Shown piece by piece: positions 41,148-63,819 of a DNA stretch of 64,000 bases. Numbering within the stretch: position 1 is the stretch's first letter; each line of letters opens with the position of its first letter. The stretch is from Naganishia liquefaciens (Eukaryota > Basidiomycota > Tremellomycetes > Filobasidiales > Filobasidiaceae), in contig BLZA01000032.1 in the NCBI GenBank assembly GCA_013423385.1, positions 701,595 through 765,594 of the forward strand, written 5' to 3'. Under the pieces are notes generated by a model. It was not told the origin of the DNA and did not search any database. It was given only the letters and a program-made list of their open reading frames with translations. The position numbers and the translations under genes were made by a program.

Positions 41148-42002
41148 TCAGCACAACTCTATACTTGGGGGAGGTTGACTGAAAACCAGGCTCGTCGACA
41201 GGCTTGCAGAAATGGGTGGTGCTATGCTCATTGTGAACATCGATTTTAGGCTACGCTGTCTTGCGTTTTCCGGGTCTTCAGAGAATGTGTACGCAAGGGT
41301 ATTCGTCTCCTGAAGAGTAGAGAGTGTTTGTGTTACACCCCCTATCTGACTGGGGCTCGTTTCGTGCGAAAGGTATAAGGTCCAATTACAAGCAGGATCC
41401 CTATGTCGAGAATCCGCGGTCTTTATCGAACCAGAAACTTGTATTTCAGCGCTACCGTCTTCGTGCTTAGTGCTGCTCAGCATCTCGAGATCCAGCATCA
41501 TCGTGATATTCAGCCAGTAATGATTGCAATCCAGCAATTGGGTACGAAGCCGTTTGATGATATCGGGCGAGTCGCTCGATCTTGAAGGCCTAGGCAGTTG
41601 TTGCAGGATCAAAGTCACCATATCCACCGCCAGATTCGTGCGACGGGACACAGTGACAGGAAACAAAAAGTATCCGCTGTGCAGGAAGGCTCCTGTGATG
41701 ATCGGATCGTGTTTGACAATTCCCTCTGCTGCACCCAGTGACACAAAGCTTTCAAAAATCTCCACACCTTTCGTCCAGCACTCAATCAAGCTCAGAAAAC
41801 AACGTCTTTCCCAGTAAGTCTCGGACTCGTTATACATTGCATCGGTATATATCCATCCCAACGATAAGGTGACCTGTTGGAGACTCTTGAGGGTGCTCAG
41901 CAGCAGTCTGGCGAGCTCTTCGATCTGACTAGAGACTATCTGTTCCTCTTCTGGGCCCCGTAACTGTGACGAACGGGTCTCCGAATAGCTTCGCGAAGAC
42001 AT
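41148..42002 (-). CDS. Lineage-specific family protein, copy A (284 residues)
   Basis: Unrecognised single-exon gene with ATG at 42000-42002. It shares blocks with the two neighbours on the same strand: IECWTKGVEIFESFVS, KHDPIITGAFLHSGYFLFP, a helical IIKRLRTQLLDCNHYWLNI, LDLEMLSS, ACNWTLYLSHET and a closing PPPSIELC. Order and spacing are the same as in the copy at 44042-44902, so they are paralogues. No signal peptide or membrane segment; the CNWTLHxSHE block and the fixed C-terminal Cys are the most distinctive marks. Function unknown. Confidence 0.7.
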   Translation of the reverse strand: MSSRSYSETRSSQLRGPEEEQIVSSQIEELARLLLSTLKSLQQVTLSLGWIYTDAMYNESETYWERRCFLSLIECWTKGVEIFESFVSLGAAEGIVKHDPIITGAFLHSGYFLFPVTVSRRTNLAVDMVTLILQQLPRPSRSSDSPDIIKRLRTQLLDCNHYWLNITMMLDLEMLSSTKHEDGSAEIQVSGSIKTADSRHRDPACNWTLYLSHETSPSQIGGVTQTLSTLQETNTLAYTFSEDPENARQRSLKSMFTMSIAPPISASLSTSLVFSQPPPSIELC

Positions 42003-44041: not shown

Positions 44042-44902
44042 TTAGCAGAAATGGAGTGCCGGAGGCGGTACAGTCAAAGCCATGCTTGTCTCTAAGCTCT
44101 TTGAAGAGCCTGGAGCCATGCTCACAGTAAATATGGGCTCTATACCAGAGTCTGGGTGCGCATACGCAATGACGTCTGTCTCCTGTGCGGTGGAGCTTCT
44201 TTTTATGACGCCCGCGATGCAATTGAAGCTGGATTCGTGTGAGAAGTGTAACGTCCAATTGCAAGAGGGATTTCGCTCAACCTGGCTTTGAATGTCTCCG
44301 TCCGAGTGGGAACCTTCTCGTCCAGAGTTCGCTTTGAAACCAATGCGGGAAATCTGGATCTCCCCATCGGCATCACCATACAAGTTGGCACTCAATATCT
44401 TCACATCCAACTTTTCCATGATATCGAACCAGTCCCGCACGCAGTCATGCAATACACCTCGAAGCCTTATAATGGCGCTGGGGAGGTCGGCATCTGACTG
44501 CGAAGGCAAGCTCTCCAGGGTCCCAGTGATCAAATCCACTTTCAGGTCCCCCGATCCGTCGGTCGATGCAGGAAACAACATGTATGCGGTATGTAGAAAG
44601 GCTCCCATCACCATGGGGTCGTTGCTGACGATTTTCTGCACCATTTGCGGTGAAATGAAGCTCCTGAAGGATTCGACACCACTAGACCAACTTTGAATGA
44701 CTTCTGTCAAGTCAGGGCCGTCCCAGAACACTTCGTCCGATTCGGCTCCTGCAGCATTCCTCAGACTTTGTAACTTCGAGGGCACTTTCTCCAGAGCGTT
44801 GGAGACGCAGTTAAGCAACTGCGTCATTTCGCGAAGAGGGTCGTCGTTTGTTGAACGAGGAGTTTGTACAGTAGAGGCTGTCCAATGGCATCGCAGTGGC
44901 AT
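44042..44902 (-). CDS. Lineage-specific family protein, copy C (286 residues)
   Basis: Single exon with ATG at 44900-44902. Shared blocks with copies A and B: ALEKVPSKLQSLRN, FWDGPDLTEVIQSWSSGVES, NDPMVMGAFLHTAYMLFP, IIRLRGVLHDCVRDWFDI, KLDVKILSAN, SCNWTLHFSHES and the closing PPPALHFC. Length almost equals copy A. No known domain recognised; likely soluble. The conserved blocks despite many changes suggest that A and C are under selection. Confidence 0.7.
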   Translation of the reverse strand: MPLRCHWTASTVQTPRSTNDDPLREMTQLLNCVSNALEKVPSKLQSLRNAAGAESDEVFWDGPDLTEVIQSWSSGVESFRSFISPQMVQKIVSNDPMVMGAFLHTAYMLFPASTDGSGDLKVDLITGTLESLPSQSDADLPSAIIRLRGVLHDCVRDWFDIMEKLDVKILSANLYGDADGEIQISRIGFKANSGREGSHSDGDIQSQVERNPSCNWTLHFSHESSFNCIAGVIKRSSTAQETDVIAYAHPDSGIEPIFTVSMAPGSSKSLETSMALTVPPPALHFC

Positions 44903-45133: not shown

Positions 45134-47492
45134 TCAGAGCATGACGACACCGATCTTGGACGTCTCTTTGGTCTTCCAGGAGTCCCGTGCTCCATCTATC
45201 GGAGCGCATCTCCAGTTGTAGAGATAGTCTGCAACAACGAATGATCAATCTCATGGCAAGGGTTAGACGAGACGCCTGGATAGCACTTACAGTTCTGTCG
45301 GACAACACGGAAACAGGAGACATATCCGTGAGCTGTGGCTTCATTCGACTGCAAAAGACTTACGAGGTATCCATCGCCAGGTCCAAACTGTGAAATTTGC
45401 AGTAGATCAGTCTTACATTGTTTTATAGCAGCAGCCATGCGTACCAATTGTTCGTGCAGGAATAAGTTGTTATCCATGAGCGATAGCGCATTGAAGACGT
45501 CGAAACCAGCCTGAATATTTCATCGAGATCAGTGGTACCCGCAAGACAGCTCATGGATACGTACCTGCTTGGCAACAATCAACGAATCCTTCATGAGCGC
45601 ATTCAGCCGGACACCCAGGCGCGCCTTGTCTTCTGGCGTATCCCGAGCCGAGTGCGATGATTCCGGCACAGCGTCGCTCGCGTAGTAGAATGCGTAGGCC
45701 GTATTGAGGGATTTATGAGTCGGGTGTTTCATGATGAGGGATGGGAGCGAGTAAAAAGACATGAAGTCGGTGATTGTATGTGTTGATGGATCCTACAGGA
45801 GAGTTAGCGAAATGATTTCCGTATACGTGATGGAGTACGTACCTCGACGACATATGCCCAGACGACCTGACCCTCCCTTCCTCGCCCCTCAACAGTGTCA
45901 CCCGTACCGCGCCCACTAAGGAACCAATGCCTGACCTCGTCATCCGTTGCAAAGACCTGCTGCATCTCGAATCGCTGCATGTACCGCCGCAAGAGCGTCG
46001 CCACCACGGGCACATCTGCTTCGGTCATTTCGCGCCATCCGGGCGTGAGAGGAGCAGTGGGGAGGGCGTATTTCCGGACGAGGCGGGAGATGGTCTCGCC
46101 GCGGCCGATAGGAGTGAAGCCGATGTCGACGAGTTTTGCCGGGTTGAGGTTCCGGTGGTAGTACCTGGGCGAGCGGGCGGTGAGCAGGGGAGGACACGCA
46201 TTTTGTGGCGGAACTTACCGGCAAGTGGAGATGGGCGTGGGAATGACGACGCCGGCCGTGTAGACGGCTTGCCAGATGCCCTTCAAGTTGACGCGCCGTG
46301 TGACTTCTTTGATGAGGACCGGTGCCAGACGCTTATTTCGGAGCTTCTTGTGCGCGCAGAGGAAATTGATCTCCGCAGCTTTAAAGGAGCTAGGAGAAGA
46401 CAGCGCGTGAGTACGAGAAGTCTAGAGTGCAGAGATGACGGAGAGATTGAAATAGCCTCTTCAAAGACCATCATGATTGCCTCGGCCTGTCCCTCATCAT
46501 CCAATGCGTGACCGGCACAGAAGCCACTGAACTCCCCTCAGATTCAGAGAAAGCTTCGACTTCGGCCGCGGGGCTTCGTTTCGAGTGAGAAGGCTGCTGT
46601 GCGAATCGCCGGACGCTTTCCTTGCGAACGCGCTCTCCTATCCTCAACCGCAAGCGCTAAAGGCTGGATCGAATGTCGATATTACTCACTTATCCCTGAC
46701 GCCCACATCCATCGGAATACCACTGATGAACGCGATAAGCTTTCCGCTACCCTTGACCCGCACGCCAATGTGCCAATCCTCGACATATCCCGGCGGACCC
46801 AACGCCCATCGTAAAAACTCGTCCGTGTACCCGAGCCGGAAACTCGCGTCCGGGTCCTCGACATAGTTTTCCGAGAGCAATTGTTGTGTTTCGCGAAGTT
46901 GAGTAGGGGAAGTAATGTCGATGGTGGACCATTCGTAACCTGATGGAAGGGCTAGCGGGTCTTTGCGTACGGATTCGACGGTGCGCGGGGGATCAATCGG
47001 GCCTTCGGCGGGCTCAGAGGCGGATGAGGAGGAGGACGCGACCGTCTGGATGACGGGTTGCGTTTTCCAAAACTTGTGTTCCCCGAGATCTTTGGTGTTC
47101 TGGGCGTTGCCGAGCGCAGATTTACCCTCGAGAAGCTTGATCAGGTCGACGGCTTGCAAGGCGCGCTTGATCTCGGCTTCATTGATGGTTGGGGGTGCAG
47201 AACCAGCAGGGGTATCGTTCACGATTTGCTGCTGCACCTGAGCGACAAGCGCGTCGGGAACGGAGCCCGAGGAGATATCCTTGAGCTTTTGGATTGCTTT
47301 GGATGCCTTGTTCTTGGATTTCTTCTTCTTCTTCTTGGACGAACCGGCCGCTGCAGGGGCCTGATCATTGACTTCTTCCTCTTCCTCTCCTGCCTCGCCT
47401 TCCGCGTCCGCCTCGGCCTGGAGGTCGGCGAACTTGTCGAGCAGGTCACGCAGGTTGGCTGGGTCGTCTATCTTGGGCTGGTCGGCAGGCAT
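45134..47492 (-). CDS. NMT1: Glycylpeptide N-tetradecanoyltransferase (N-myristoyltransferase)
   Basis: Adds myristate from myristoyl-CoA to N-terminal glycines; cytosolic and ribosome-associated. Eight exons fit in phase: 46690-47492, 46219-46389, 45843-46164, 45565-45792, 45445-45510, 45364-45387 (24 nt), 45291-45294 (4 nt) and 45134-45228, for 570 residues. The N-terminus has the usual acidic and poly-Lys region ([16 protein letters not shown]). The core shows [72 protein letters not shown] and the terminal KIGVVML, whose end carboxylate is catalytic in this family. The conserved LNYYLYNWR stretch exists only if the 4-nt exon AACT is included. Intron 1 is 300 nt. Confidence 0.95.
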
Positions 47493-48582: not shown

Positions 48583-49128
48583 ATGTTGTCAGAATCACAA
48601 CGCGAAGCCTTGGTAACAACAATGGCAGGTAGAGCGGACGAGTGGGATGAGAAAATCGATAAATTGGACGCAAGTCTGGAGAGCATCAGGACGTATGTGA
48701 CGGAGCGTAAGACGAGCTCCGCCATTCCTGGCACAGAAGACCTGTCGAAAGCACAAATGTCAATCTTTGACTGCGAATCCGTCCTTGAAGAGTACATCAA
48801 ATTCCTCGATCAACTGAGCAACTTTGTGACAGAGAATTCGCAAACTATCGACTCTTATTTCCAAGCGAGAGACTCTCCCTCCAGCGATCCCAAGGAAATC
48901 GATGAGTGGACTCCCTATACTCACCATGATGTGATACAGGTGATAAACGAAGATGGGCTTGATGGGCGAAAGACTTTCCTCGAGCAAGTGCAAGAGGTGA
49001 TTGACACCTTGACCAGTCAATGGAACCTGAGCGGGGAAACGGTCCTCATAGTGCCGCAGAGTCTGAGGGAAGACGTATCTGGGGAAGAAACGACTGGGAA
49101 GGGACACAAGGAAAGCAAGGAAAGTTAG
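48583..49128 (+). CDS. Hypothetical helical protein, tandem paralogue 1 (181 residues)
   Basis: Single exon with ATG at 48583. Unrecognised; acidic and strongly helical (DEWDEKIDKLDASLESIRTY, CESVLEEYIKFLDQLSNFV), suggesting coiled coil. A C-terminal QWNLSGETVLIVPQSL block and the nearby FLEQVQEVIDTL align with the paralogue at 50558-51070. It ends in a Lys/Ser/Glu tail. The 3' flank is also similar to that of the paralogue, so the two came from one duplication. Confidence 0.65.
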   Translation: MLSESQREALVTTMAGRADEWDEKIDKLDASLESIRTYVTERKTSSAIPGTEDLSKAQMSIFDCESVLEEYIKFLDQLSNFVTENSQTIDSYFQARDSPSSDPKEIDEWTPYTHHDVIQVINEDGLDGRKTFLEQVQEVIDTLTSQWNLSGETVLIVPQSLREDVSGEETTGKGHKESKES

Positions 49129-50557
49129 AGGCAGGCAAGCGCAGCAGACCGGAAACAGGCCGGAAGCAATGATCTGAAAGCATTACAGCATTTAGAAGAG
49201 CCGGATGTCGTGAAGAAGATTATAGTATAGTCTTTGACTTGACTGCTGTGATTGACGGTAGTAACGGGCAATCTACGTTCATGCGTTCAGGTCAATTTTG
49301 AGGCTTCCAGTCCGCTCGTTCCATCAGGTCTTTGCACCAGCTATTGTACCCTGCTGGGCTGGTCGTACCACGCTCCTTTCAGAGAACGCTTTGTACGCGG
49401 GTAACGCGTCTGGGGGCACCCCTTCAAAAGCTAACCGAACATGCGTCTAAAGATTAGATCAGTCTGGGCGATCGGCTGTGGGCCTTGTGTCAGCTTTTGT
49501 CTACCTGAGCGAGAATATTTGGAATATTTGGCTGCGTTTTAAGCCACAAGAGCTGTTACAATCTGGTGAAGCTGCTAGTCGTATAACCTTAATTCGACCT
49601 TGACAAATGCAGCCACATTTCTGCCCACCATGAGTCGAAAAGCGCCCTGGGTGACGCATATGCCCCGCACCGCGTGTTGCGTCTACTTGTAATCCCATTG
49701 TGCTGTATGATACAACCCAATATAGGTCTCCGATAGATCCAGTTCAAACGATGTTGAGGACCGGTAACCTGATCCATAAAAGCGGATTCCACCATTGTTA
49801 TGTAGATGATCTAGCACTAGCGATGCGCAGACAGCACAGTTGATAGCTCAAGACAGCATCTCATTTTACCCAAAGTCGAAGTTAACAGTAACTGATCCAG
49901 AACAAATTGTGCATTCACAAAGGCTTCGTGATCGAAGGAACTTAAAGAGGGAATCACAGGAACAAATTGGGAATCACAGGATATGATGGCTAACACAGCA
50001 TATCATAACAAGACAGGATTACCTCTATATAAGCTTTCCCGAGTATACAAGACACGTATGGGAAAATTGTGCCTCCCTGAATTAACCAAAGAGATGGAAA
50101 TGCCGCGAGTCGCTCAAAGGCTTCAGGTATGCACGCTCTCAGGTCGTTAAAAGTAGCTTAGCTGATACCTATTTCTACAACGACCTTAGTTGTGCTGTTC
50201 GAGCTCAGGGTGCCAAGGCAGTATAGTCTCCTACAAGCACTGAGCCAGGACACGCGGTGAGCATCGGGTACTTTCGGCAGCAGAGAAACGAAGGAAATCA
50301 GAGCTGTACTCAAAAGTTATGGGCAATACGTTCCCTTTGTTGATGAACCCCTCAATACCCTTGTCGTTGACTCCTTCAACGACAAATCTGCCGACGGTAT
50401 CCTTTGTCGTCGACCCCCTCAATAACAAATCTGGTTGCGTCACAACACAACCGCTCGTCGCCGTGAAATTATATAACGCGCTCAAGCGGTGGAAGAGTAG
50501 ATCTGAAGAATTTGTCGGAATAGAACACTTGAACATTCCTCGAACCCACCTATCATC
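49129..50557. other. Duplicated 3' flank and spacer
   Basis: The first part (about 49130-49320) matches the flank after 51071, including TTTGACTTGACTGCTGTGAT and TTCAGGTCA..CCGCTCG. The remainder has no gene. Just before the second paralogue (about 50332-50440) lie two to three imperfect ~43-bp repeats sharing TTGTCGTTGAC../CGACAAATCTG. Confidence 0.55.
49600..49685 (+). repeat. Orphan copy of the EMC2 upstream sequence
   Basis: This stretch matches 51530-51615, which lies just upstream of the EMC2 start. Shared strings include ACCTTGACAAA, CTGGGTGACGC and GCCCCGCACCGCGTGTT. No EMC2 coding sequence follows here, so it is a promoter-proximal remnant carried along by the tandem duplication. 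Confidence 0.7.
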
Positions 50558-51070
50558 ATGTCAGAACTCTCGCAATTCACAGAATACAAGCAGCAGTTAG
50601 AAGAAGCATTGACTGCATATGAGGGAGTAGCCGATGCCCTAGTTCAGACAATCGGCGAGTTACAGTCATTTGCAACTGAAGTGGAAAATGGTCAAACCAC
50701 GTTCAATGAGCAGGAGTCATGCCGAGCTCAGAAACTCATCGAACAGTGTTCCACGGCAATGTCCGAATTCAAGAAGCCGTTCATTGATGTCTTGCAGTTC
50801 CTGGAGGATAATTCTGACGTCGCGGAGTCATACATAAGCATGCGTACTAACGAATCGAAAGCTCCAAACAAGAAAGATGGGCTCAGCTTCAGAGCTAGAC
50901 ATGACAAAGTGAAGGCTGGAGGCCTAAAGGACCGAGCAGACTTCGCTAGAGAAACGCGCCTCCTTATCCAAAAAATCAATATGGAATGGAATTTAAAGGG
51001 GAAAACGGCTCTAAAAGTTCCTGAGATTTTAGAGAATGAAGCTGGCATGGAAAGGGAATCAATGTCGTAG
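50558..51070 (+). CDS. Hypothetical helical protein, tandem paralogue 2 (170 residues)
   Basis: Single exon with ATG at 50558. It aligns with the gene at 48583-49128 over most of its length: FLEDNSDVAESYISMR against FVTENSQTIDSYFQAR, and MEWNLKGKTALKVPEILE against SQWNLSGETVLIVPQSL. The N-terminal half is coiled-coil-like (YKQQLEEALTAYEGVADALV). Function unknown. Divergence of the proteins is large compared with the still alignable 3' flank, which hints at fast protein change. Confidence 0.65.
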   Translation: MSELSQFTEYKQQLEEALTAYEGVADALVQTIGELQSFATEVENGQTTFNEQESCRAQKLIEQCSTAMSEFKKPFIDVLQFLEDNSDVAESYISMRTNESKAPNKKDGLSFRARHDKVKAGGLKDRADFARETRLLIQKINMEWNLKGKTALKVPEILENEAGMERESMS

Positions 51071-53285: not shown

Positions 53286-56200
53286 ATGCTGTTCCGAATA
53301 CCCATCACTCGCGCGCAGGCGGCACAGCTTTTCCCGCCCGTGCTTGCAGCATTCTTGTCGTGCCTCTTCATCGTCATCCGACCCATCGCCGATCTCAGTC
53401 CGCCCTACTCGTTCCTGATTCTCACCATTCAGATCCTGTACTTTTATCCTTCGGGAACGCTTGTGGCTCAAGTCGAGTCGTCGGCATTGGCGTTTGTCGG
53501 TGCGCTCTTCAGTCTTGGATACGCGAATCTCTTTCTCTGGTTTGCGGTGTTGGCCAATCGGGGCCACAATGACGGTGAATCGGTATGGGCGCGGGTCGCA
53601 TGTTCGCTGGGTTTGGCGGCATTGGCAATCAGCAGTGAGTTCTCGGGGAGTATCAGGGAGCGAAGCTGATATCATGTAGCGGGATGGATACGGTCAAAAT
53701 CGCCGCGCCTGATGAACGCCGCGAGGATTGTTCTTTTCCACGGCGTATGGCTGCTTGTCGATACTTCCAATATCCGAGAGGTGAGCCTGAACCAATCTCG
53801 TCTCATCGTAAAATGCCGACTTTCCCGCAGATGTCATCTGCCAATTTCCTCCACCTCTTCTATCCGACGCTCTTCGCCATGCTCGTTTCCCTGCTCTCAT
53901 CCGTCATCGGACATTTCCTCATTCCGCCATATCAAGCCTCTCTCCGGGACGTCCTTCATGAAGCGATCGATTCGCTGCAACATGAAATACAGATTCAAGT
54001 CAAGGGTGCACTGCCGCGGCAGGAAACATCGACTCCGACAGACGCCAGCGAGTCACCAGGACTCTCTGAGGGCCCGGAGCCCAACCTTCCACGACCGATC
54101 ACCCAGGCCCGACTGCTGAACATTTCGAAACCCGCCCGCTCGTTGCCCAAGCTGACGCCCGTTTTGCGGAACTTGTACAACGCGAGGCGGCATAGCGTCA
54201 CATATGCTCCGCTCGGACCCACAGCGATTCGGCCATTCTTGACATTGCTGGGAACGAGAATCGGACGGAATGCGGTGGCCAAGGGGGCTGGAAGCGATTT
54301 GCACACGGCATTCGCCCAGAGGAAAGGCAGGAGGGGCGAGGAAGAGACGAGCCCACCCTTTGTGGAGAGCTTGCCCTTGTTGGCGGCCACGATGACTGCG
54401 GCGCTTTCGGTGTGCGCCAGGGCGGTCGAGGATGCGTACGGATGGTCGGAGACACGGAGAGAGTTCAATCTTCGGGCGCTATGGAAACGTCTTGGACAAC
54501 CGTCGGCGCGGAAATCATTTCAGTCCGGCACATTCCGCTCCGGAGACGAACTTCGGACGATTCGTAGCGAGATGGAGACCGCCGTCGCGGCTTTTGAAGC
54601 CGACCTTCTCATCTGGCTCGAGATGGATGTTTTCGCCGCTTGGCCCGGGTCCGCTGCAAAGTGTCCCGTTGCAAGAGTCTCGCTGGCAGACCTACCCTCT
54701 GGCTCGGCTCGGGCTATTTTTGAGCAAAAGCTTCAATCTGGTGCACATGGCCTAGATCCGGACAAGATGAAGAGAGCACATGATGCCAGGTTGAAGGCGA
54801 CGTCATGGCTAGTAGCGATGCTAGATGTAGGTCTAATTCCGAACCTGCCCTGCTTCTCAGCTGACGGTGTCAAAGCTTTCTTCCGATATCTCGCAACTGG
54901 TGGCAATATCTCGGTCACTGGTGGATCAGGCTGATGAGCTAGGGTATGCGGAAAGCGGGAAGAGACAGAGCAGAATATGGCTGCCCAAGCTTGGCAAGCA
55001 CTGGCTCATGAAGGCACCTGGCAAGGGGAGATTAGTCGACGACGTGGGAGCGTCTAATTCGGCAGGTGCGTCTTTATCTTTGCCCCGCGTTCTATGCCGA
55101 CTTGGGTCGCACAGTCCAACGGCACGCAGAGCTAGAGTCGGCTGTCAGAGAGGAAACCGAGGATGCCGAATACATTGCCCAGCATCGTCTCGCCCGAGAC
55201 ATCTCCCGAGATGATCATGACCGACACCTGCAAGAACGGGACGGCATTCAACGCTCTAAGGGCAATCAGAAACACAGCAAAAATGAAAAGGGAGATATCA
55301 GGGAGACGAAAGAACATTGGGGGTCACTTTGGGACATGGCGCATGGGTGGAGACGTTGGCAGCTGCGGTGGAAGCTGTGGTGGACGTCGGAACAGACATT
55401 GCAAAGTGAGTCGAATCTTCCACGAAGGAAGTGAGCTTGTCTGACGTCAACCCAGGGCGAATTCGTCTCAGCAAGTGGCTGGCGAGCGGAAAGCATTCCA
55501 AGCATGTTCATTACGCTTTTAAGATGGCCTTGGGAGTCATGCTGCTCGGGTTGCCAGCATACTTACCGTTAGGATCAGCAGGTCTGTTCCATATCGAGCG
55601 CTTCTCAAACATTTCAGCTTATCCCTTTCAGGACGAGACTGGTTCACGGAGTCTCGGGGTCAATGGGTAAGGCGTGAAAGTCTTCCGTCGAGACGCGGGT
55701 TCTGACCTCCTTAATCGCTCAGGCTTTGATTAGTTAGTGAGTATCTCCTTGCAACCATATGCCTTTATTACTGATGATCTCCCAGCCTCTACGTCTTGGA
55801 TATAACCACCGGGGCGACGTTTCGCGTTGGTATATGGCGATTGATTGGAACCATTAGCGGAGGTATTGTCGGCTATGTCGTAAGTCGCTTCACTGTGGTT
55901 GTCGCGGCGAATTGACGCCTCTGTTAGGGCTTTGTTATCGCACGTGGAACTGCATACGGCTTGACCGCAGTCGCAACGGTCGCCAGCTTACCCATCGCCT
56001 GGATCATGCTCTACTCCACATATCCCGGTGTCGGCATTGTAGCAGGAATCACATTGCCGCCGATCCTTTTTATTCCGTATATCGAACGAAGCTCGTACTC
56101 TGAAGTCATCATCATTGCGCTGTGGAGAGCCGAGCAAGTCTCTGTAGGGTAAGTAGAACACGCGGCGCGAGATCGTTTACTGGACGACTTTGTTAGGATC

Positions 56201-57284: not shown

Positions 57285-58796
57285 TCATGCGGCTGTCGTC
57301 GCTTTTGCTTTGCCGGCCGCAGCGGCCGCAGCGCCCCTCGCTGGCCTTGCCTTGCCCCAAACAACCTTTCCGCGTTTGCCCAGAACCTCAATTCCACCCT
57401 GAGCCGTAAGTGCTTCGGCTACACGTTCGGCTACGGAACGCTGGTTAAAGACGACGAACGCACAATCTGGATTATCGCGTTAGCACGTGTGTTGGAGACG
57501 GGAGCGGGCAACTCACGGCTGGCGGCCACTATAGTCAACGACTTGACCTGCCCCTGCTGTACGAAAGGACAAGCGCTCATTAACGATGTCTTGACGTCCT
57601 GTTCCTGACACTCCGGCAGCCCAAGGAAGATCAACGTAGTCTATGCGCAAAGTCAGTATGATGTGGGATGGATTAAAGTGCAAAGGCTTACAATGGACTG
57701 ATCTTCCGGCGCCGTCAAGCCCTTGCTCTCCGCGTGCTCCCGCAAAATCTTCTTGGCAACCGGGTCGTTGTTGCCGTGGTACCGATCCACAATGTTCTGC
57801 TTCTCCAGCCCATTTGCCTGCGGCACCTCATGCCTGTCACACGAATCAGCTCGAGTCCAGAATAGCAGCGAGGAGGCCTACCTGAAGGGACACTCGTTGC
57901 CACGCTTGCATTCCCCCTTGACGAAAAAGCTGCAAATATGTGGTCGATTACGCTTGTAGTACGGGTCCTTGCGCGCGAGGTCTTTGAGCATCTCTTTGGC
58001 GGCGGAAGACGCCATTCGTGCGTCGGGAGTATCTTGCAGTAAACCGGAAGACGTATTTGACATCTGTCATTGAGCGACCGTAAGCAATTTCAAGGCGAAT
58101 TCCTAGCATTTGAGGCTTACAGCTTGTTCCATCACCTGCGTGTAGTACTGCTTATTGATGTCCGACGTAGGCGCCTCGTTCAGCCTACCCAAAGCTGCGT
58201 CTCGCACTTGTGTTGGCAAGCCGTATTCCCTGAGCGCTGCAGTATCAACGACGGCCACCACTCAAGATACACTCAGGACCCACAGATCCAGAAGACACGT
58301 CTGGCACACGTTCTTGATTTTGGCGCATGTAGTGCAAATCTCGGTCTTCTTGAATCTAGCACCCGCTCCGGGATTCCAACGGAAGACAGTGAAGGGACGA
58401 GTGCAGATCTGGTTAAATGCAGTAACAGAGGGCATGGGGTAAGCTACGATCAGTTCGAAGCCGTGATCATTGCCTGATTTATGCGCACCTTGCATTCCTT
58501 GCCGTATTCTTGCTTGCTCTGCGCGGGAGAGCATCAGCACGTCAAGCATCCAGTCTGCAGCGAGGAGAGCCTACCATTCGGACATAAGGGTTCTCCCCCA
58601 GACATGATTCGCACCTGTATCGAAGGATCGTCAGCGACCTGTCAAGCACGCTGCCAGACTCATCAGGACTTGCAGAATCGGGAAGTCGGACGATTCCGAT
58701 CCTACTTTCTGTGGCAAGACGGCGCATTAGCGCTGGATCGTATGAGTATGAGGACCAGACAAGCAGACGTACGTTGAGATCTGCTTTAGGCGGCAT
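57285..58796 (-). CDS. SLT11: Pre-mRNA-splicing factor SLT11/ECM2 (RBM22 family)
   Basis: Spliceosomal protein that contacts U6 and the 5' splice site in the active complex. The N-terminal zinc ribbon region reads [20 protein letters not shown], then [15 protein letters not shown]-like [20 protein letters not shown] and [24 protein letters not shown] zinc finger follows: [20 protein letters not shown] and RH. The RRM is at the C-terminus ([20 protein letters not shown]), ending with an Ala/Lys tail and TGA at 57285-57287. The first coding exon (58773-58796) encodes MPPKADLN; the second is 58674-58708. The next intron (58615-58673, 59 nt) begins with GC and is the only way to join ILCESCLGE. 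Gene has roughly eight to nine exons. Confidence 0.9.
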
Positions 58797-62025: not shown

Positions 62026-63819
62026 CTACAGCACAAACGACCTTGCTCGAGCCTTCAGCAGAATCAGGGACAACTGCTGACAAAGCGTCGAGAAGGCCGC
62101 GGGAGGCATCGTATCCTGCCACAACCTCATTACCTCTACGGTACCCTTGTCCATCATCCCTCCGACCGTGAACACAAGCGGGGTGAAGGGAATTCCGTTG
62201 CGAGGTAGTCGACGAATTTTGTCCTCCGCCTTCGAGTCGAGGAATTTGGCGATCAGAGCATAACATCGTGCTACTGGATCCTCAGGGAGCAGATTGGGAG
62301 GGATTCTAGTGTTGACCGAATCACGTGTCGAAAGAGACACCACCGTGACGTCGTATTCGTGACGCGCCACACCTGACATCGGATTTCCGGTGATTCTGAT
62401 GTCGTTCCGTCTAGCTGTTCCGCCAATCAGGGGCTCCACGACCACGGCCACACCCTGAATTTTGCTGAGGGCGGAGGCGATCGCTCGCTTGACCTGTTCA
62501 TGTCGGGCCGTACTCCAATTGTGTCGGTGTACACAAACTTCCGCGTGGCCGACTTCGAGGGTTTGCAGACCGCATTGGTTGCAGACTGCGCCGGGTCCCG
62601 GAATCAGGGTCTTGACATGTAAGCCGGTCGAGACTTGGAAGTCGGTAAGTTGCAATTGAGCGTGAAAAGGAACAATGGACAGCCATTTCTTCCCCAAACC
62701 TATAGCCGACTCTAGTACTGTTTTGATTTGTTGGTCGGTCAGTTTGAGAAAGAGTTGCTTTCGTGTTTCTTCGAACGCCTTGTTGCAACGCTCTCTTTGT
62801 CGAACAATGATAGGTTGTCCGTCATCATTGAATTCTTGATACAGTTCGGGGCCTGGGCCAAGCAAGGGTTCGAGCAACTGATCCGCAACGTCTTGTGCCG
62901 CGCTGTAAGCCAAAGGAGCACAGGTCTCATATGATAAGAGACCAAGGCCGCCTAATCTGACTGGCAGGGAATAAAGAATGTCGGTCGTTTGTGACTGGAA
63001 TTCTGTGAGGTTGTCGGTATTGGCACCACGAATGAGGTTGGCGGTATCCCAGATTGATCGGTATGAACGTTTCCAGAGATCTTCTAGTCCATCGCCAAGA
63101 AGGCACCTTTGAAGGTGTCGGAGTTCTTGTTGTAAGCACTGGCGCAGCAACAGCAGGCTGTGCTGATGAGGCAATCCTGCCAACCTCGTCATCTTCTCCT
63201 CGAGCTTGACGATCTTGGCCTCGAGGAACTTTCGTCGTGCCTCGGCCGAGCCAATGCAGGATCCCAAAATTTCCATCCCAGAAGATTTGATGTCCGCCAG
63301 CGTTACGATTGATGTCTTTGCGTGGTTCAGTTGTAATGAAACATTATCGGTGTTGAAGAAGTTGAAGATCTCTTGAAGGGTATCCGAGGACTTGCTGAGG
63401 ACGTAGATATCGTCCAAATAGGCCAAGGCTACGGCGTCGTGTCCGAGGGCGGTGGTGAGCTCGTCCAGCATGGGCCGAATTCCGACTGAGAAAAGCAAAG
63501 GGCCCAGAGGGTCGCCTTGTCGAACTCCTTGGCTTGACTGAATGACTTCGGGGGCATCTTCCAAACCACCGAAGACGAGATCAGACGGCTCGTTGTAAGC
63601 CCATTTGGCGACCTTCCATAGTCCAGGGGCGTATTTGTTGATGGAGTTGGCCATTTCTCGCCGGCTGAGGGTGTTGAAGGCGTTGCGGAAGTCCAAGGAC
63701 GCAGCGTGGGTAAAATTCTCGTCCGAGATGGTACCGTCCATCGCCCGTTGTACTGCTCGAATCAGAGGTTCGACTCCGCTTCGAGTACCCATGTAAAGCT
63801 CCCTAGTACGGGGCGCCAA
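62026..63819 (-). mobile_element. Non-LTR retrotransposon reverse transcriptase with CCHC/endonuclease-like tail
   Basis: An open frame of about 597 codons on the minus strand. Reverse-transcriptase motifs: A as SLDFRNAFNTLSR (about residues 41-53), B as SSQGVRQGDPLGPLLF (95-110), C as LAYLDDIYVL (132-141). The C-terminus has a CCHC knuckle, CNQCGLQTLEVGHAEVC (about residue 415), followed by RRNDIRITG and RHEYDVTVVSL, resembling the restriction-like endonuclease of R2/CRE-type elements. The frame begins directly after a TAG, at a TTG; the part N-terminal to SGVEPLIRAVQRAM (fingers and any zinc fingers) is missing, so the copy is 5'-truncated or broken upstream. The downstream 1.8 kb is intact, suggesting recent insertion. 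Confidence 0.8.

Follow-up and report, generated by a model that had tools for sequence, protein, structure and literature searches.

The N-myristoyltransferase (NMT) gene of this intron-rich fungus, otherwise an ordinary one, very probably has a genuine coding microexon of only four nucleotides, AACT, constitutively included between two short introns. We analysed a stretch of 64,000 nucleotides (the window), in which the coordinates of the exon, its splice signals, the fit of the resulting protein and the preference of a gene model that uses no homology were established. As modelled, AACT would be classed as a spliceosomal microexon, that is, a very short exon flanked by canonical GT-AG introns. 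Extraction of the bases and reconstruction of the gene placed AACT, both introns and the preceding 24-nt exon exactly, to the base, where a sequence-only reading had put them, and the GTAAGT donors and CAG acceptors that it had described were found in both introns (Table 1).

Table 1. Coding part of the NMT gene and the features around the four-nucleotide exon (positions in the window)
Feature	Position	Strand	Remarks
NMT coding part	45134..47492	-	8 exons, 570 aa; both NMT domains in Pfam; same exons from the homology-free gene finder
24-nt exon TTTGGACCTGGCGATGGATACCTC (FGPGDGYL)	45364..45387	-	Phase 0 on both sides
Intron 6, 69 nt, GTAAGT...CGACAG	45295..45363	-	Multiple of 3, stop-free in frame; branch candidate GCTCAC
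Microexon AACT, 4 nt	45291..45294	-	Asn codon plus base 1 of a Tyr codon, GDGYL-N-Y-YLYNW
Intron 7, 62 nt, GTAAGT...TTGCAG	45229..45290	-	Branch candidates TCTAAC, ATTGAT
Terminal exon, 95 nt, ending ...IGVVML*	45134..45228	-	Gene model

Gene model and encoded protein

The gene lies on the minus strand, with its ATG at 47492 and its TGA at 45134. Its eight exons, of 803, 171, 322, 228, 66, 24, 4 and 95 nt, together encode 570 residues. The seven introns (300, 54, 50, 54, 57, 69 and 62 nt) are all GT-AG, with intron 6 in phase 0 after codon 538 and intron 7 in phase 1 after codon 539. The predicted protein matched PF01233 (NMT) over profile positions 1-160 of 160 (240.1 bits) and, in the microexon model, PF02799 (NMT_C) over positions 1-198 of 198 (252.0 bits). 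A comparison with the PDB set returned 44 distinct NMT sequences at E < 0.001, the best at 427 bits. Both domains are common to the predicted protein and the family members 8hbs, 2p6e, 4cav and 1iic, and the invariant motifs EINFLC, GDGxL and YLxN are present together with the terminal GVVML. The predicted chain ends in VVML, and 2p6e and 1iic likewise end in GVVML in the PDB alignments; judged by position only, the C-terminal carboxylate is predicted to lie at the fixed end expected of the family. The enzyme itself appears ordinary, and its gene structure alone would be unusual. At the junction, the PDB alignments among the matches listed (5 of 44) are free of gaps, and the G-D-G-x-L and Y-L-x-N columns on its two sides are invariant in a three-sequence alignment with two fungal sequences.

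Splice paths of one or two introns were enumerated from the fixed start of the 24-nt exon, allowing GT or GC donors, AG acceptors and introns of at least 30 nt. Within this scope, 726 stop-free paths led to the VVML end (55 with a single intron; 168 with GT donors only). Just one of these contains GDGYLNYYLYNW, which bears out the earlier claim that the conserved stretch is restored by AACT alone. Its junctions read CTC+AACT+ACTATC, and the predicted mRNA is GGATACCTC-AACT-ACTATC. The remaining 725 break, lengthen or shorten the motif and were dropped, apart from two kept as rivals. The frame is a less exclusive property: AACT does carry it to the terminal VVML, as had been proposed, but the same holds if the 69-nt intron is kept or a donor 4 nt downstream is used, two routes absent from the sequence-only reading.

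Splice signals and gene finding

Relative to 83 training introns, the four splice sites flanking AACT ranked between the 48th and the 92nd percentile. The donor of intron 6 (45363) scored 9.5 bits (69th percentile) and its acceptor 5.32 bits (48th); the corresponding values for intron 7 (donor at 45290) were 10.04 bits (78th) and 7.06 bits (92nd). The best branch candidate of intron 6 is GCTCAC (7.28 bits, 58th percentile), with its A 35 nt from the exon. In intron 7 the candidates are TCTAAC and ATTGAT, respectively 35 and 17 nt from the exon, with a branch score of 6.21 bits (40th percentile). A branch-acceptor distance of 35 nt, as in introns 6 and 7, is long and is reached by 5 of 89 introns, including these two. 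Of the 14 GTs that follow the 24-nt exon and precede the last acceptor, only those at 45363 and 45290 resemble donors, the other twelve ranking in the 0-1st percentile. In intron 6, no AG occurs between the branch candidate and the microexon acceptor; the AGs available further upstream are at distances from the donor of 5, 15, 25 and 31 nt, all below the 40 nt of the shortest called intron.

How often such an arrangement arises by chance was estimated by dinucleotide shuffling of the 135-nt block (30,000 replicates), with 8 nt preserved at each end and an exon of 1-12 nt as the target. At an acceptor score of at least 5.3 bits and a donor score of at least 9.9 bits, any such exon appeared in 48 of the 30,000 shuffles, a frame-restoring exon in 16 and a 4-nt exon restoring an aromatic Y/F in 4. 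The respective counts at laxer cut-offs (4 and 6 bits) were 1341, 458 and 53 of 30,000. No internal acceptor/donor pair scoring at least 4 and 6 bits and lying 1-12 nt apart was found in any of the 93 introns of the 14 models scoring at least 30, NMT included.

A gene finder was trained on the window itself in four rounds (codon usage and matrices for donors, acceptors and branch sites), with seed matrices, length prior and gene penalties of our own choice. The calls comprised 26 genes with 109 introns, of which 102 measured 40-75 nt (median 53.5) and seven exceeded 150 nt. Introns so short and so closely spaced, together with the genes present, suggest a fungus, probably a basidiomycete. Genes scoring below 30 (12 of 26) were excluded from refitting and from the counts, leaving 14 well-scored ones. 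Using no protein comparison, the gene finder arrived at the same eight exons for NMT. When its parameters were refitted on 83 introns from the 13 other well-scored genes, NMT being removed from this final refit but present in the earlier rounds that chose the training set, the same eight exons were again preferred, at 105.81 nats versus 102.22 for the next best. That runner-up, which is also the best path when the microexon acceptor is withheld, keeps intron 6. When the donor was withheld, intron 7 was kept and the protein truncated (99.36 nats), and when both sites were withheld, AACT was skipped (96.37 nats). The 4-nt exon between two ordinary introns, as first proposed from the letters alone, was thus the best solution by protein family, by the homology-free model and by splice-site scores.

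It had also been argued that exons this small are missed by gene predictors, with truncation of the enzyme as the result. This worry is justified in principle, as far as our own simple gene finder goes, because a minimum exon length makes it truncate the protein or insert residues. With no minimum, or one of 3 nt, for internal exons it found AACT. Minimum lengths of 5, 10 or 20 nt led to a truncated NMT, and one of 30 nt to an insertion of 23 residues.

Alternative readings of the junction

Two other splice models that keep the reading frame count as serious rivals, and both are weaker than the microexon model. Intron 6 could be kept, always or in one isoform, so that 45295-45363 would be coding within a 97-nt exon and 23 extra residues would stand between GDGYL and NYYLYNW (predicted mRNA GGATACCTCGTAAGTC). 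The frame survives because intron 6 is 69 nt long, a multiple of three, and has no in-frame stop, a property shared by 6 of the 93 introns in well-scored models. Moreover, retained introns are the commonest fungal splice variant in the portion of the survey consulted (PMC2397502), and this is the second-best homology-free model, a modest 3.6 nats behind when protein homology is left aside. The protein family nevertheless speaks against it: the NMT_C score drops from 252.0 bits to 231.7, the profile being matched only up to the insertion (position 172 of 198), and no insertion is seen there among the PDB matches listed (5 of 44 alignments). The stretch also starts with GTAAGT, ends with CAG and has a good branch site, and as codons it scores -0.02 per codon, a value as low as or lower than which is found in 4.2% of 23-codon windows of NMT. 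We consider retention, constant or partial, very unlikely. Still harder to credit, and in our view close to excluded, is a single 131-nt intron (45229-45359) with the donor GTCTTT 4 nt downstream, which would dispense with the microexon and give GDGYL-VNYLYNW (protein GDGYLVNYLYNW, predicted junction GGATACCTCGTAA-ACTATC). Overlapping donors 4 nt apart are a familiar form of splice variation, and frame, length and the VVML end would all be unchanged. However, at -6.6 bits this donor ranks lower than any in the training set (minimum -3.2), and it adjoins a perfect GTAAGT; the fungal N-[YF] would become V-N, at a cost of 8.6 Pfam bits (243.4 versus 252.0), and a 131-nt intron falls outside the 40-75 nt spanned by 102 of the 109 called introns.

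The microexon might, on the other hand, be real but often skipped or mis-spliced, with skipping lowering NMT output through nonsense-mediated decay. Joining CTC directly to ACTATC shifts the frame and brings a stop after 10 further residues, with loss of the C-terminus. In human NMT1, the C-terminal carboxylate is reported, in the part of the study available, to be the catalytic base, removal of the last three residues nearly abolishing activity (PMC7048800), and a poor or dead product would be expected. Transcripts without AACT, or with intron 7 still in place, should therefore encode an inactive enzyme. Against frequent skipping, there is no sign of regulation and all four splice sites are strong; the joint intron, at 135 nt, would be longer than the 40-75 nt of 102 of the 109 called introns, and cassette exons are rare in fungi, at least in the passages seen of PMC2397502. 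There is little chance that skipping plays such a part. A regulated, switch-like microexon was rejected on the ground that 4 nt is not a multiple of three and that skipping shifts the frame into a stop, and a recursive splice site (a zero-length exon) on the ground that the four bases are needed to restore both the conserved motif and the frame.

Tandem duplication of an intron as the origin of introns 6 and 7 was set aside for now, the two being no more alike (score 5.0) than 16.5% of 3,915 other pairs. No further copies of intron 6 or intron 7 were detected in the window, the best other match extending over 12 nt (E 0.16).

Small exons and their removal

Internal exons of 24 nt or less numbered 5 among the 80 of the 14 well-scored models (3, 4, 14, 21 and 24 nt). 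The 3-nt exon proved to be a gene-finder error, a false N-terminus in the gene at 57285-58796 (minus strand), which encodes an SLT11/ECM2/RBM22-type spliceosome protein. After correction the model of this gene, with a Pfam STL11_N score up from 63.6 to 101.9 bits, starts with four consecutive small exons (24, 35, 40 and 30 nt) and contains a GC-AG intron at 58615-58673 (GCAAGT...ATACAG). Small exons are not confined to NMT in the window, since the SLT11-like gene has four of them. A gene for a FUSC-like membrane protein has a predicted 14-nt internal exon, GCTTTGATTAGTTA, at 55723-55736 (plus strand), adjoined in the gene-finder model by a 35-nt exon at 55632-55666.

The window also holds other genes. 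Two neighbouring single-exon genes on the minus strand, 41148-42002 and 44042-44827, are related (35.7% identity over 269 residues, E 5e-56), as are two predicted genes on the plus strand, 48583-49128 and 50319-51070 (27.4% identity over 164 residues, E 1e-15). A single open frame at 62026-63792 (minus strand) carries a reverse transcriptase domain (RVT_1, 53.4 bits) and is probably part of a retroelement.

Very small exons are already known from fungi, and AACT in NMT is very probably a further, striking example, to go by the genomic sequence. A close parallel is the 1-nt exon of Fusarium CYP621A, whose RNA support is described in the accessible text of PMC12940212; the introduction to that report also cites exons of 2-5 bp for Arabidopsis, Drosophila and humans. 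Like AACT, the CYP621A exon is of sub-codon size, lies between two short introns within a conserved protein motif and is needed for the frame, and it too came to light when the gene was annotated by hand with an invariant motif as guide, according to the same text (PMC12940212). It differs in measuring 1 nt rather than 4 and in belonging to an ascomycete P450, and it is backed by 20 orthologues and RNA reads in the sections available, whereas AACT is known here from one genomic sequence. Another intron-rich basidiomycete, Phanerochaete chrysosporium, has very small coding exons next to short introns in its P450 genes, with microexons in nearly one third of the P450ome; the shortest exon given in the portion of the article at hand has 6 bp and encodes whole residues (PMC1184071), in contrast to the 4 nt of AACT, which split a codon in a housekeeping gene. 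The 20-nt microexon of Trichoderma virens Xlr2 was missed by automatic annotation and, like AACT, is needed for a conserved domain, but it is longer and, as far as the text seen goes, acts as a glucose-regulated switch (PMC11121469), and no hint of regulation accompanies AACT. Two other papers mention microexons merely as a read-mapping setting (PMC3990503, PMC4014442). A literature search with the hyphenated spelling 'micro-exon' only returned no NMT microexon. Single-sequence and alignment-based scans of the prokaryotic and viral collections genome_contigs and viral_contigs yielded no relatives; pattern matches numbered 30 and 46 in genome_contigs and 14 and 193 in viral_contigs, none of them a relative.

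How could so short an exon be joined? The sequence-only reading had regarded AACT as too short for ordinary exon definition, which is probably not the relevant rule. Fungi are thought to use mainly intron definition, a view argued, in the part of the survey available, on the ground that intron retention predominates in ascomycetes, basidiomycetes and zygomycetes (PMC2397502). Each of the two flanking introns is short and would be recognised across the intron by its own strong donor, branch site and acceptor. The limit set by exon definition would not be at issue, because intron definition allows removal whatever the length left between two introns. Introns 6 and 7 may then be removed one after the other, with AACT finally joined as an ordinary exon; sequential removal is probable because two spliceosomal complexes probably cannot occupy a 4-nt exon together. 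That the spliceosome acts in this way in the cell, in some such order and with constitutive inclusion of AACT, is what we infer from these signals.

A broader proposal, which we regard as unlikely, is that AACT arose long ago, has been conserved in NMT across this fungal lineage and serves as a gate for splicing fidelity. Inclusion would give NMT; if AACT were skipped or intron 7 kept, the products would be truncated and exposed to nonsense-mediated decay, and if intron 6 were kept, an isoform with 23 residues inserted beside the catalytic core would result.

NMT is an essential, drug-targeted enzyme, and knowledge of the enzyme itself is unchanged by the finding. If RNA confirms AACT, it would rank among the smaller exons so far recorded in fungi. 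It would also provide a clean test case for annotation, in which a minimum exon length, as with our own gene finder, would lead to a truncated enzyme or to 23 false residues, and a simple system for the removal of two introns that lie four bases apart.
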